Shown here one piece after another: positions 19,544-57,231 of a stretch of 64,000 nt of DNA (positions are counted from its first letter, which is position 1; each line of letters begins with the position of its first letter). Source of the stretch: Natronorubrum tibetense GA33 (GTDB lineage: Archaea > Halobacteriota > Halobacteria > Halobacteriales > Natrialbaceae); assembly GCF_000383975.1 (NCBI RefSeq), contig NZ_KB913017.1:1407105-1471104 (forward strand), read 5' to 3'. The notes under the pieces are model-generated. The model did not search any database. It was given only the letters and a program-made list of their open reading frames with translations, and was not told the DNA's origin. The position numbers and the translations under genes were made by a program.

Positions 19544-19572
19544 ATCGCGGTCGCGGCGGTCGCGACCGCGAT
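19544..19572. repeat. Perfect 12-bp stem hairpin between convergent genes
   Basis: ATCGCGGTCGCG (19544-19555) pairs perfectly with CGCGACCGCGAT (19561-19572) across a 5-nt loop GCGGT. It lies 21 bp beyond the polC stop and 211 bp beyond the hydrolase stop. A pause or bidirectional end signal is possible, though archaeal termination normally relies on T-runs, which are weak here. Confidence 0.6.
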
Positions 19573-37959: not shown

Positions 37960-39423
37960 ATGTTCGAGACGTTTCGACTTGGCCGACGGCGGTTCGTACA
38001 GGCGACGGGACTCACAATGATCGCGGGAGCGGCGACGGGCGGGCAGGTGTCGGCCGCGACCGACTCTGACTCCGGAGAGCCGCCGGTCGACGCCGGCGAC
38101 GTGTTCGACCACCTCGATCGGGCGGCGATCAGCGTCTTCGCTCGGGACCTCGAGACCGGCGAGTCGATCGCAGACAGCGGTTCGTCCCGACCCGTGCCAC
38201 CGGCGTCGACGACGAAGGTGTTGACGACCGCGACCGCGTTCGACGAACTCGGCCCCGACTACCGGTACGAGACGACCGTCGGCGTTGTCGGCGACCGGCG
38301 GAATGACCGGGTCGTCGAATCGCTCGGAATTGTCGCTCGAGGCGATCCGGACGTGACGGCGGCGGATCTAGAATCGCTCGCGGAAGCCGTCGCCGAGACC
38401 GGCGTCCGGCGAGTCACCGACCGACTCGTCGTCGACGTCTCCGCGTTCGACGACGGCGAGCACGCGCCGGCGTGGACGCTCGGCGATGCCGTGAACTCCT
38501 ACGGCTCGAAGAGTTCGGCGTTTGTCGTCGATCACAACGAAGTCGAGGTCACGGTCAGTCGGCAGGGTAACGACTGCGAGTTCGACGTCGCGGTCGAACC
38601 CGATTCCGGGCTGATCGACGTCGACGTGGATGTCGAGTGCGTCGACGAGGACCGGTTCGTGACGATCACGACGACCGATCACTGGACGAACACCGTCGAA
38701 GTCGGTGGGCGGATGGTGCCCGACGACGAGGCGACGGCGGACGTTCCCGTCGGGACGCCCAACGAACACGCCGCCGGCGTCTTCGTCAGGGCGCTCGAGG
38801 AGGCAGGGGTCAACATCACACCGGACGGAGGTGGGCCCGAACCCGAGGTCGAGATCACCGACGAGCCGATCGAACTCACGGAAGAGCTCGCGACCCACGA
38901 GTCGAGACCGCTGTCCGCGATCACGGACGGACTCAACGACTGGTCGTACAACATGGTGGCCGAGAACATCGCCCGGACGGTCGCCGCCGAACGGGACGGC
39001 GTCGGCTCCTGGGCCGCCTGGGAGGGGATCCTCGGGTCGGCACTCGAGGACGCCGGCGCGGAGACGGCACAGATCCGCGACGGGTCCGGGCTCTCGAGGC
39101 ACGACCTCGCGTCCGCTCGCGACGTCGTCGCGATGATCGAGTGGGGACTCGAGGCGGAGTGGAGCGACACCTTCCGCGAGACGATCCCAATCGCCGGCGA
39201 GGAGGGAACGGTCAGAAACCGTCTGACCGACGTCGAGCCAACGGTTCGGGCCAAAAGCGGCTCGCTTCGGGGCGTGACGTGTCTCGCTGGCGTCGTCGAG
39301 GACGACGAGGAGCCGATCGCGAGCTTTGCGGTCCTCGCGGCAAACCTCACCGGCGAGCGAGCCAGCGGCGCGTCGCCGCGGGTCGACGAACTCGTTGCGA
39401 AGATCGCCGACGAAGCGACGTAA
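37960..39423 (+). CDS. dacB: PBP4-type D-alanyl-D-alanine carboxypeptidase/endopeptidase (peptidase S13)
   Basis: The 487-residue protein has a Tat signal (GRRRFVQATGLTMIAGAA) and an S13 peptidase domain. All three penicillin-binding motifs are present: SxxK as STTK at about residues 83-86, SxN as SYN near 329-331, and KTG as KSGS near 432. The DSV...SYGSKSSAFVVDHNEVEV part forms the extra domain of PBP4. In bacteria these enzymes trim peptidoglycan; haloarchaea have no murein, so the natural substrate is unknown and may be another peptide or an ester. The symbol follows the bacterial family. Confidence 0.9.
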   Translation: MFETFRLGRRRFVQATGLTMIAGAATGGQVSAATDSDSGEPPVDAGDVFDHLDRAAISVFARDLETGESIADSGSSRPVPPASTTKVLTTATAFDELGPDYRYETTVGVVGDRRNDRVVESLGIVARGDPDVTAADLESLAEAVAETGVRRVTDRLVVDVSAFDDGEHAPAWTLGDAVNSYGSKSSAFVVDHNEVEVTVSRQGNDCEFDVAVEPDSGLIDVDVDVECVDEDRFVTITTTDHWTNTVEVGGRMVPDDEATADVPVGTPNEHAAGVFVRALEEAGVNITPDGGGPEPEVEITDEPIELTEELATHESRPLSAITDGLNDWSYNMVAENIARTVAAERDGVGSWAAWEGILGSALEDAGAETAQIRDGSGLSRHDLASARDVVAMIEWGLEAEWSDTFRETIPIAGEEGTVRNRLTDVEPTVRAKSGSLRGVTCLAGVVEDDEEPIASFAVLAANLTGERASGASPRVDELVAKIADEAT

Positions 39424-53467: not shown

Positions 53468-54910
53468 CTATGACCGTCGAACCCGCATCTTCACCGGACC
53501 GGGATCGAGCGACACCTTCGGCGTCGGATCGATCGACTCCGTCACTCGCTCGAGGTCGACGCGACGAACCAGCGTCGCCAGCGAGAGTTTGAGTTCGGTC
53601 ATCGCGAACCGCATCCCGATACAGTGTCGCGAGCCACCGCCGAAGGGGAAATAGGCGTACTCGGGCCGGTCGTCGGGGTCGGCGACGACGGATCGGCCGT
53701 TCTCGTCGTCCGCCAGCCATCGATTCGGCCGAAACGCGTCGGCCTGGGCCCACCAGCGTTCGTCGCGGTGGATGCCGTACATATTCAACTGAACCGTCGT
53801 TCCCGGTTCGATCCGGTAGCCGACGAGGGCGGTCTCCTCGTGGGGCTCGCGCTGTAAGAACGGCAGCGGCGGGTAGAGACGCATCGCTTCTCGGCCGACG
53901 GCCTCGGTGACCGCCAGGTCGCGAAGGTCCGCAAACGTCGGATCCCGGTCGCCACAGACCGAATCGACTTCCCGCTCGAGTCGGTCCCGAACGTCGTCGG
54001 CATCGTCGGCGGCGAGCAGCCAACAGGCGTAGGTCAGCGCGGTCGCCGTCGTCTCGTGGCCGGCAAGCAAGAACAGCTGTAACTGGTCGGCGATCTCCTC
54101 GGCCGTCGGCCTCGAGCCGTCGGGGTACTCCCCGGTTGCGAGCAAGGAAAGCAAGTCGTTGCCCTCCCCGTCGGATCGGCGACGTTCGGCTACCAGGTCA
54201 TCGACGAGGGACGCTATGTCGGCCGTCGCGCGCCGGTATTCACGTTCGGCCCGGCTCGGAAGCCACGTCGGAAGCACGGCGCGGGTGCCGAAGAACTCGT
54301 TGTCGCTGTACGCACCCATGGCGTGGACCCAGCGTCGCACGCGGTCGGCGCGTGCGTCGCCCAACTCGAGGTCGAAGAGGGACCTGGTAAGCGCTCGCAG
54401 CGTCAGCGTCGACATCGCCTCCCGGATATCGACCACCTCGCCGTCAGACCAGTTCTCGACCAGACGCACGGTTTCCTCGACCATGTCGTCGGCGTAGGAC
54501 TCGATTTGTGCCGGCGTGAAGGCGTTCTGGAGCAACATTCGTTGCTGTCGCCAGCGTTCACCCTCCGCGAAAAACAGGCCCTCGACGTCGAGGAGGTCGC
54601 TGAACTCGTGTTCGAACTCGCCCCGCCAGAACTCGTCGTCCCGGGCGACGGTTACCTCCTCGACGAGTCCGGGGTCCGAGACGACCACGAACTCGCGGCC
54701 GAACGCCTCGTACCGGGCGACGTCGCCGTACTCACGAATCGAGACGAGGAACTCGAGCGGATCGAGAGCGAACGCGAGGGTGCTATCGATCAGTGGAAGC
54801 CCGCGCGGGCCGGGTGGCGGCGTTCCGACCGCCGCTCGCGTCCGTCCAGTGTCGCTGTTCGCGTCGGTCGTCGATTCTCGGTCGTCTGCCGTCGCGTGCG
54901 TCTCGGTCAT
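53468..54910 (-). CDS. Cytochrome P450
   Basis: The 480-residue protein is a soluble P450 monooxygenase. The haem-binding loop is FPFGGGSRHCIGMRFA with the cysteine ligand at about residue 429; the I-helix oxygen-activation motif is LLAGHETTATAL near 281, and the K-helix ExxR is EAMR near 340. The N-terminus is acidic and polar, with GTPPPGPRGLPLI as the proline-rich hinge, so it is probably cytoplasmic. The substrate is unknown. It is divergent from the HTH-10 regulator, and a ferredoxin gene lies beyond that regulator. Confidence 0.95.
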   Translation of the reverse strand: MTETHATADDRESTTDANSDTGRTRAAVGTPPPGPRGLPLIDSTLAFALDPLEFLVSIREYGDVARYEAFGREFVVVSDPGLVEEVTVARDDEFWRGEFEHEFSDLLDVEGLFFAEGERWRQQRMLLQNAFTPAQIESYADDMVEETVRLVENWSDGEVVDIREAMSTLTLRALTRSLFDLELGDARADRVRRWVHAMGAYSDNEFFGTRAVLPTWLPSRAEREYRRATADIASLVDDLVAERRRSDGEGNDLLSLLATGEYPDGSRPTAEEIADQLQLFLLAGHETTATALTYACWLLAADDADDVRDRLEREVDSVCGDRDPTFADLRDLAVTEAVGREAMRLYPPLPFLQREPHEETALVGYRIEPGTTVQLNMYGIHRDERWWAQADAFRPNRWLADDENGRSVVADPDDRPEYAYFPFGGGSRHCIGMRFAMTELKLSLATLVRRVDLERVTESIDPTPKVSLDPGPVKMRVRRS

Positions 54911-54914
54911 ACTG

Positions 54915-54931
54915 GTTCGTTCGGAACGAAC
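54915..54931. promoter_or_regulatory. Perfect inverted repeat just upstream of the P450 start
   Basis: GTTCGTTC (54915-54922), centre G, then GAACGAAC (54924-54931) form a 17-bp palindrome five bases before the P450 start codon. It may be an operator or lie in a short leader. Confidence 0.6.
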
Positions 54932-54937
54932 GACTGT

Positions 54938-54958
54938 CAGTGCTTTCCCGAAGCACTG
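54938..54958. promoter_or_regulatory. Second inverted repeat in the P450/regulator promoter
   Basis: CAGTGCTT (54938-54945) and AAGCACTG (54951-54958) are perfect arms around TCCCG. The repeat is next to the TATA-like box ctctttatc (54963-54970) of the regulator, a position suited to a repressor or activator site. Confidence 0.6.
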
Positions 54959-54991
54959 AACCTCTTTATCAACCGCTGCCGAACAACCGGT

Positions 54992-55645
54992 ATGCAATCG
55001 GCAGACCTCAGCCTGCGACTCCCCCCGTCGATGCAACTGCCAGCGCCCGAGGATCCGCTCGAGGCGTTCGAGCGCGAGGAAGTGCTCTCCTGGGAGGTCG
55101 ATCCCGACGCCGAAACCGTCCGCTTTCTCTCCCTGGTCGTCGGCGACCCCGGTGCACTCGGGAACCTGGCCGAGGACCTCGAGTCAGTGCGGCGGTACGA
55201 CGTCACGCCCGTCGACGAGGACACGTTCTACGGCTACGTCGAGATGGACCTGCGGGCCGCCGACGCCACGCTGCTGGGTACGTTCGACGTTCCCGGGCTG
55301 ATGATCGTTCCGCCGATGGTCTACACCGGACGGGAGAACGTCCACGTCACCGTCCTCGGCGAGCCAGAGGCCATGGCGGGACTGCTCGAGACGGCTCCCG
55401 ACGAAGTCGATGTCGAGGTCACGCGCGTGAGCGAACACCAGCGACGCACGGAGACGCTGGCCGGGCGTCTCACGGCCAGACAGTTCGAGGCCCTCGAGGT
55501 CGCCCGCGAGGCGGGCTACTACGAGGTGCCACGGAGCGGCGAACTGGCGACTGTAGCCGAGGCACTCGAGTGTTCCGAGAGCGCGGCGTCGACGCTGCTA
55601 CGATCGGCGGAGAAGGAACTGGTCGATGCGGCGTTACGACGGTAA
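54992..55645 (+). CDS. HTH-10 (bacterio-opsin activator-type) transcriptional regulator
   Basis: The 217-residue protein has an N-terminal sensor-like half (SWEVDPDAETVRFLSLVVGD) without a recognised ligand site and a C-terminal HTH-10 domain: LTARQFEALEVAREAGYYEV, then ELATVAEALECSESAASTLL as the recognition helix region. HTH-10 regulators of the Bat family are typical of haloarchaea. A TATA-like box 24 nt before the ATG supports the start. Its promoter is shared with the P450 gene, so control of that gene and of itself is likely. Confidence 0.9.
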   Translation: MQSADLSLRLPPSMQLPAPEDPLEAFEREEVLSWEVDPDAETVRFLSLVVGDPGALGNLAEDLESVRRYDVTPVDEDTFYGYVEMDLRAADATLLGTFDVPGLMIVPPMVYTGRENVHVTVLGEPEAMAGLLETAPDEVDVEVTRVSEHQRRTETLAGRLTARQFEALEVAREAGYYEVPRSGELATVAEALECSESAASTLLRSAEKELVDAALRR

Positions 55646-55896: not shown

Positions 55897-56022
55897 ACGT
55901 GACGGTTCGAGCGTCTGGGACATACCGCTTCCGGACCACACTCGGTGGCTGGCGAACGAGTCGGCCCACGAGTCGACCGAGGGAACGCTTTTCCGGTCCG
56001 TCGTAGAACAGTGAGAGACGGA

Positions 56023-57231
56023 ATGGTCGCACTGTCGTTCGCCGTACTCGTCGGGACCGCCATCCTCACCTGTCTGTTCATGGCGTGGGTGCTTGGGGCG
56101 AACAGCAACTCGCCGCCCTTCGCGCCTGCGATTGGCGCGAACGCGATCTCGACGATGCGAGCCGCGTTCGTTATCGGCCTGCTCGCGGCCGCCGGCGCGC
56201 TCATGCAGGGTGGGAGCATCTCGGAGACGGTCGGCGCAGACCTCATCGACGGCGTGGCGATCACGCCGCTCGCGGCTACTGCAGGCCTGCTGACGGCGGC
56301 GACGTTCATGGCGGTCGGCATCTACACGCGGTATCCAATCCCCGCAGCGTTCGCGACGACGGGCGCGATGGTCGGCGTCGGCCTCTCGCTGGGCGGCGAC
56401 CCCGCGATGGCAACGTACCAGCGACTCGGGACGTTCTGGCTGATGGTTCCGATCATGTCCGGTGGCCTGGCGTACGTGACGGCGATTTTGTTGCGGCGCG
56501 ACGACGTCCCCGAAACCGTCGGCGTCCCGTTGCTCGCTGGGGTCGTCGGGGCCATCGTCGCCAACATCCGACTCGGGGTTATCCCGGATCCGGCAGCCGA
56601 CCAGGGCACGCTCGCCAGAGTCGTCTCCCGACAGTTCGGCGGCGGGACGACGCTCGCCGCGGGCGTCGATCTCGGAACAGTCCTGGTCACAATCGTCGTC
56701 GGTGCCCTCGCGTTCTACTGGGTCCGACAGCGTGTCCTCGTCTCCGTCGAGAGCGGCATTCGATCGTTTCTACTCGTTCTCGGTGGTATCGTCGCCTTCT
56801 CCTCGGGCGGTTCGCAGGTCGGGCTCGCGACCGGCCCGCTCGAGAACCTCTTCCGGATCGAACTCGGCCTCCCGGGGACCGTCCTGCTCGCAATCGGCGC
56901 GACCGGCATCCTCGCTGGGGCCTGGATGGCCGCACCGCGACTGCTGCAGGCAACCTCGAGGGAGTACGCCCAGCTCGGCGTTCGGCGGTCGATCGCGGCG
57001 CTCGTGCCGGGCTTTATTATCGCACAGCTCGCGATCGCGCTCGGGATTCCGATCTCGCTCAACAACATCATCCTTTCGGGGGTTATCGGCGGCGGGCTCG
57101 CGGCGGGTTCGGCCGGCGTCTCGAAGCGAAAGATCGGCTTTACGATCACCTTCTGGCTGCTGACGCTCGGGAGTTCGATCGTCGTGGGGTACGGACTCTA
57201 TCAGCTGCTAGCCGCGATCATCGGCGGGTGA
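56023..57231 (+). CDS. PiT-family inorganic phosphate transporter
   Basis: The 402-residue integral membrane protein has about ten hydrophobic segments and the PiT signature in both halves: GANSNSPPFAPAIGANAIS (about residues 25-43) and, near the end, ALGIPISLNNIILSGVIGGG. PiT carriers take up phosphate with a cation, H+ or Na+. The second signature is less typical (SLNN in place of the usual T-N motif), so sulfate or another anion cannot be excluded. The start at 56023 avoids 26 polar residues that are not expected before the first helix. Confidence 0.88.
   Translation: MVALSFAVLVGTAILTCLFMAWVLGANSNSPPFAPAIGANAISTMRAAFVIGLLAAAGALMQGGSISETVGADLIDGVAITPLAATAGLLTAATFMAVGIYTRYPIPAAFATTGAMVGVGLSLGGDPAMATYQRLGTFWLMVPIMSGGLAYVTAILLRRDDVPETVGVPLLAGVVGAIVANIRLGVIPDPAADQGTLARVVSRQFGGGTTLAAGVDLGTVLVTIVVGALAFYWVRQRVLVSVESGIRSFLLVLGGIVAFSSGGSQVGLATGPLENLFRIELGLPGTVLLAIGATGILAGAWMAAPRLLQATSREYAQLGVRRSIAALVPGFIIAQLAIALGIPISLNNIILSGVIGGGLAAGSAGVSKRKIGFTITFWLLTLGSSIVVGYGLYQLLAAIIGG

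Follow-up and report, generated by a model that had tools for sequence, protein, structure and literature searches.

The arrangement closest to the locus described here is, by analogy, the divergent gvpA-gvpD promoter pair of haloarchaea (PMC4390858). There, the UAS lies near the BRE, and a short UAS-BRE distance is essential for activation by GvpE (PMC4390858). The cytochrome P450/regulator locus analyzed in this study likewise has divergent haloarchaeal promoters with a central activator site near the BRE, which in our case is predicted. The GvpE system differs in having two partly overlapping UAS for its two promoters, with GvpE as the activator, whereas in our locus the box is single and asymmetric, the regulator is of the HTH_10 type and the target is a P450 gene.

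A second point of comparison is Bat, an activator with a C-terminal helix-turn-helix that acts through a UAS (PMC2253796, PMC1502140). This UAS is found at bop, brp and crtB1, upstream of a weak TATA box (PMC2253796, PMC1447603, PMC1502140). Bat and the regulator of the P450 locus both have an HTH_10-type helix-turn-helix at the C-terminus, and a UAS role is predicted for the box of the P450 locus. Bat, however, carries GAF and PAS domains and has several targets, while the regulator described here carries an HVO_0513_N domain and apparently has one target.

Haloarchaea have numerous regulators, HTH_10 proteins among them (27 HTH-10 genes were reported for Natrialba magadii (PMC3403918)), but a DNA site is known for few of these proteins. 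A pair consisting of one regulator and one predicted site next to it, kept across several families, offers a simple system for testing HTH_10 recognition. The same system would serve to test how haloarchaeal P450s are controlled, and in Halobacterium one such P450 influences pigment production. Deletion of CYP174A1 of Halobacterium raises bacterioruberin and lowers the bop transcript (PMC6212597). CYP174A1 is a haloarchaeal P450, as is the P450 of our locus; an adjacent HTH_10 regulator is not mentioned in the passages considered (PMC6212597). A literature search returned no paper on the P450/regulator pair or on HVO_0513.

The locus is part of a stretch of 64,000 nucleotides, which as a whole is referred to as the window, and all positions are counted from its first nucleotide. 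The features of the locus are the following.

53468-54910, minus strand: cytochrome P450 gene, 480 aa (Pfam PF00067, E = 1.2e-76)
54915-54931, no strand: palindrome 1, GTTCGTTC-G-GAACGAAC (8-1-8, perfect)
54936-54944, minus strand: second, less strongly conserved block, which resembles AAnnnCGAC when read on the P450 strand and lies about -26 to -34 relative to the P450 start
54938-54958, no strand: palindrome 2, CAGTGCTT-TCCCG-AAGCACTG (8-5-8, perfect)
54949-54961, no strand: asymmetric 13-letter box CGAAGCACTGAAC, the proposed regulator site, with the right arm of palindrome 2 inside
54964-54969, plus strand: TATA-like box CTTTAT of the regulator gene, -28 to -23 relative to its start codon, with a conserved TTTAT core
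54992-55645, plus strand: regulator gene, 217 aa, with an HVO_0513_N sensor-like domain followed by a C-terminal HTH_10 domain

The two start codons are separated by an intergenic region of 81 bp (54911-54991). The match of the P450 to PF00067 (258.8 bits) covers 459 of the 462 profile positions, and the heme-binding Cys motif is present in the translation (FPFGGGSRHCIG). In the regulator, PF24278 (HVO_0513_N) was assigned to residues 26-149 (E = 8.6e-18; 64.7 bits versus a cut-off of 29.8) and PF04967 (HTH_10) to residues 160-211 (E = 1e-13; 51.3 bits versus a curated cut-off of 23.1). Its near matches come from Natronorubrum and Natronococcus species. When it was used as the query (E 1e-3), 37 matches were obtained in its own genome. 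A search of solved structures by sequence returned no relative of the regulator; its structure model has a mean pLDDT of 79.9, and all matches in a fold search have a TMq of about 0.2. Downstream of the regulator, on the same strand, the window contains a PHO4-family (phosphate transporter family) gene at 55945-57231.

The original prediction was that the intergenic region contains two perfect palindromes, and both are indeed found there. Most bases of palindrome 1 are reused in a second perfect register (TCGTTCG-GAA-CGAACGA, 7-3-7, 54917-54933). Palindrome 2 can be extended by one more pair (9-5-9, 54937-54959) and overlaps the conserved box. In the whole 64-kb window, there are 23 inverted repeats whose arms are 8 bp or longer and whose spacer does not exceed 5. 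This count also brought up two other long inverted repeats, one with 12-bp arms and a spacer of 5 (19544-19572) and one with 8-bp arms and a spacer of 5 (CGGTCAGAAACCGTCTGACCG, 39209-39229). Among 5000 dinucleotide shuffles of the 81 bp, 0.6% had at least one repeat of this quality and none had two. Two palindromes are thus unlikely to have arisen by chance in an 81-bp stretch taken alone, which is to be read with the caveat that the region was chosen post hoc. This improbability speaks for a dimeric regulator with a palindromic operator at each of the two promoters, of which the orthologs would have degenerate versions.

In its own genome, palindrome 1 has three perfect occurrences, and 231 places per strand match with at most two mismatches. 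It is made of TTCG/CGAA words, which are frequent in this genome. One of its two other perfect copies is located inside the ORF of a paralogous regulator, and the other looks to be coding, as judged from its flanks only. A second copy of palindrome 2 was not found in the same genome, where the nearest match has three mismatches.

The regulator was searched in relatives, in the family, in the order and in a set of named genomes, and both proteins were located on the extracted loci. This resulted in 63 distinct P450/regulator pairs (regulator identity of at least 46%), which were anchored without gaps on the region of box and TATA. The anchor was placed where the box-TATA consensus matches best, so that conservation of this region is somewhat favored by construction; a MAFFT alignment of 43 intergenic regions, which is independent of the anchoring, left the picture unchanged. 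The divergent gene order and a near-constant gap are found across Natrialbaceae and several other families.

Conservation of both palindromes among the orthologs, which had been set as a test of the original prediction, was not observed: each palindrome in its exact form is restricted to one of the 63 promoters, which is the window itself, and dyad symmetry is not conserved among the orthologous promoters. Palindrome 1 in its alternative register (TCGTTCG-N3-CGAACGA, 54917-54933) occurs in five of the 63, these being the closest genomes with the window included, and it is lost beyond regulators of about 85% identity. Its conservation (mean pairwise identity of 0.40) is near background (0.35 for 54970-54988). 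In palindrome 2, the A at position 54939 is unique to the window, with G in 51 of the 63, while position 54957 is T in 61; the pair 54939-54957 is therefore complementary in the window alone. On the side of dimeric operators, positions 54937, 54938 and 54944 in the conserved left block are complementary to 54959, 54958 and 54952, respectively, in 46-59 of the 63. However, in one genus the right half of palindrome 2 has changed from TGAAC to TTGG, and the left half did not follow with a matching change. A dyad search over every center and spacer revealed none that is prominent, and the center of palindrome 2 ranked 8th of 546 choices in the more distant orthologs. An alternative consensus dyad (GAAG-N7-CTTC, 54950-54964) was also considered and rejected, being broken in the window (CCTC) and lost in the TTGG genus. 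We thus regard binding of a dimer to two palindromic operators as unlikely. The perfect symmetry of palindrome 2 appears to be mostly incidental, a local sequence state of its own genome built on a conserved half, and palindrome 1 may at most be a clade-specific accessory site. From the proposal of regulator-linked operators, a conserved, locus-specific element within which the right arm of palindrome 2 lies is retained, while the two palindromic dimeric operators are not.

The retained element is the box CGAAGCACTGAAC, which is strongly conserved, lies at a near-fixed distance from both genes and, together with the TATA box, is specific to this gene pair. Among the 63 orthologs, the information content per site is 1.41 bits for the box and 1.75 bits for the TTTAT core, compared to 0.78 for the left arm, 0.47 for palindrome 1 and 0.30 for 54970-54988. 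In mean pairwise identity, the box (0.78) exceeds fourfold codon sites (0.49). In the weaker block on the P450 side, the bases at 54937 and 54944 are unchanged in 61 of the 63. The distance from the box to the ATG of the P450 is 37-39 nt in all 63 pairs, and that to the regulator start is 36-45 nt in 62 of them.

In Haloferax volcanii, 72% of the protein-coding transcripts are leaderless (PMC4983044), and the promoter positions given here assume leaderless starts for both genes. On this assumption, the TATA core of the regulator is at -27 to -23, and its BRE position is inside the box. On the P450 side, a BRE-like A at -34 (in most cases AA at -33/-34) comes immediately downstream of the box. 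At -27, the P450 promoter has CGA rather than TATA, and TATA-like words occur in only two of the 63 P450 promoters. With both starts taken as leaderless, the element thus adjoins or overlaps the BRE at a fixed spacing, which is the UAS-BRE geometry of the GvpE type.

For specificity, a blind search with the combined pattern of box and TATA (CGAAGCACTGAACNTNTTTA, at most one mismatch) was run over 293 genomes of the order. It was found in 18 genomes with one match each, and all 18 matches are at the P450/regulator locus, with the start of the regulator 37-44 nt away. In the own genome, the box alone matches at 152 places when up to two mismatches are allowed, but exactly only at this locus; none of the other copies with at most one mismatch has a TATA box behind it. 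Four P450 homologs (60-61% identical) without an adjacent regulator lack the box. Natural losses of the box alongside the pair are represented by few cases: in L059, whose regulator is no longer opposite a P450, the box is worn (CGAGGGACGCTGAAC), and where P450 and regulator are convergent (L129, L161), no box was found.

These data bear on a rival explanation, that the box is merely an extended core promoter (BRE and TATA) for the regulator gene and not the target of any specific regulator, and that the palindromes are due to chance. The box does abut the TATA box and has AA at the BRE position, and the words of palindrome 1 are frequent in the genome. Its conservation beside the TATA box could reflect core-promoter constraint in part. 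A generic version would, however, recur in the genomes of the order, rather than having all its matches at one locus. In addition, the distance to the P450 start is also kept, and in loci that lack a divergent P450 (L059, L129) the upstream part is degraded or absent. We consider it very improbable that core-promoter function explains the box by itself.

Judging from its sequence context, the box is probably the cognate site of the divergently encoded HVO_0513_N/HTH_10 regulator. We consider it rather likely that the 81-bp region consists of back-to-back haloarchaeal promoters sharing this one predicted site, by which the regulator would activate the P450 gene and limit its own. The divergently encoded protein is predicted to bind the box. 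On the P450 side, the box is just upstream of the BRE-like A and the promoter lacks a TATA box, so that the bound regulator would recruit TFB and TBP to a TATA-less promoter and switch the P450 on, in the manner of a UAS. On the regulator side, the TATA box is a good one and the conserved box overlaps the adjacent BRE, so that the bound protein would be in competition with TFB and hold down its own production. A UAS of the P450 that is bound by the neighboring regulator and also overlaps that regulator's BRE is the simplest interpretation. The sign of regulation (P450 up, own gene down) is probably as given, and is read from the geometry alone.

In bacteria, divergent repressor/P450 pairs are common. 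By this precedent, the regulator could repress both the P450 gene and itself by blocking TFB at both promoters, with release once the HVO_0513_N domain senses a ligand or substrate. Site and geometry are identical under repression, the box overlapping the regulator BRE and adjoining that of the P450. On the other hand, the lack of a TATA box in 61 of the 63 P450 promoters is a better fit to dependence on an activator, and Bat, a characterized HTH_10 regulator, is an activator (PMC2253796). We therefore think that repression of both genes is improbable and prefer activation of the P450 with restraint of the regulator's own gene.

The region of the recognition helix (CSESAASTLLR, CTESTASALLR or CAESTAS...) varies in parallel with the type of box (TGAAC, TTGG or CTAG). 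This covariation was rejected as independent proof of recognition. It is confounded with ancestry, since the regulator tree requires only about three changes, which is the minimum. In L140 and L141, the box has changed while the recognition helix is unchanged. More tentatively, the locus may represent an order-wide single-target switch, in which an HVO_0513_N/HTH_10 regulator coevolves with a private non-palindromic site, activating a TATA-less P450 promoter and restraining its own. Should this possibility, which we see as somewhat doubtful, hold true, the TGAAC, TTGG and CTAG lineages would be a readout of an HTH_10 recognition code.

The CTAG type was observed for more distant HTH_10 regulators that are 35-42% identical (L018, L019, L025, L028, L145, L149-L153 and L155), most of which have a divergent P450. 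In this set, CTAG replaces TGAAC at the corresponding place, and in the regulator tree its members all fall to one side of a branch. The UAS of bop contains ACTAG, and CTAG is thus shared between that UAS and the box of these more distant P450 pairs.

A second P450 lineage (L156-L159), 60-61% identical to the P450 of the window, is devoid of the regulator and has an AT-rich promoter. The P450 of L156 adjoins ORFs which, by their translations only, are phosphoribosyltransferase-like and prenyltransferase-like. In two genomes, one from the same genus as the window (L062 in G005) and another (L050 in G132), adjacent fragments of P450 and regulator were found, with the intergenic region deleted; as we read these fragments, the pair is undergoing joint loss in some strains.
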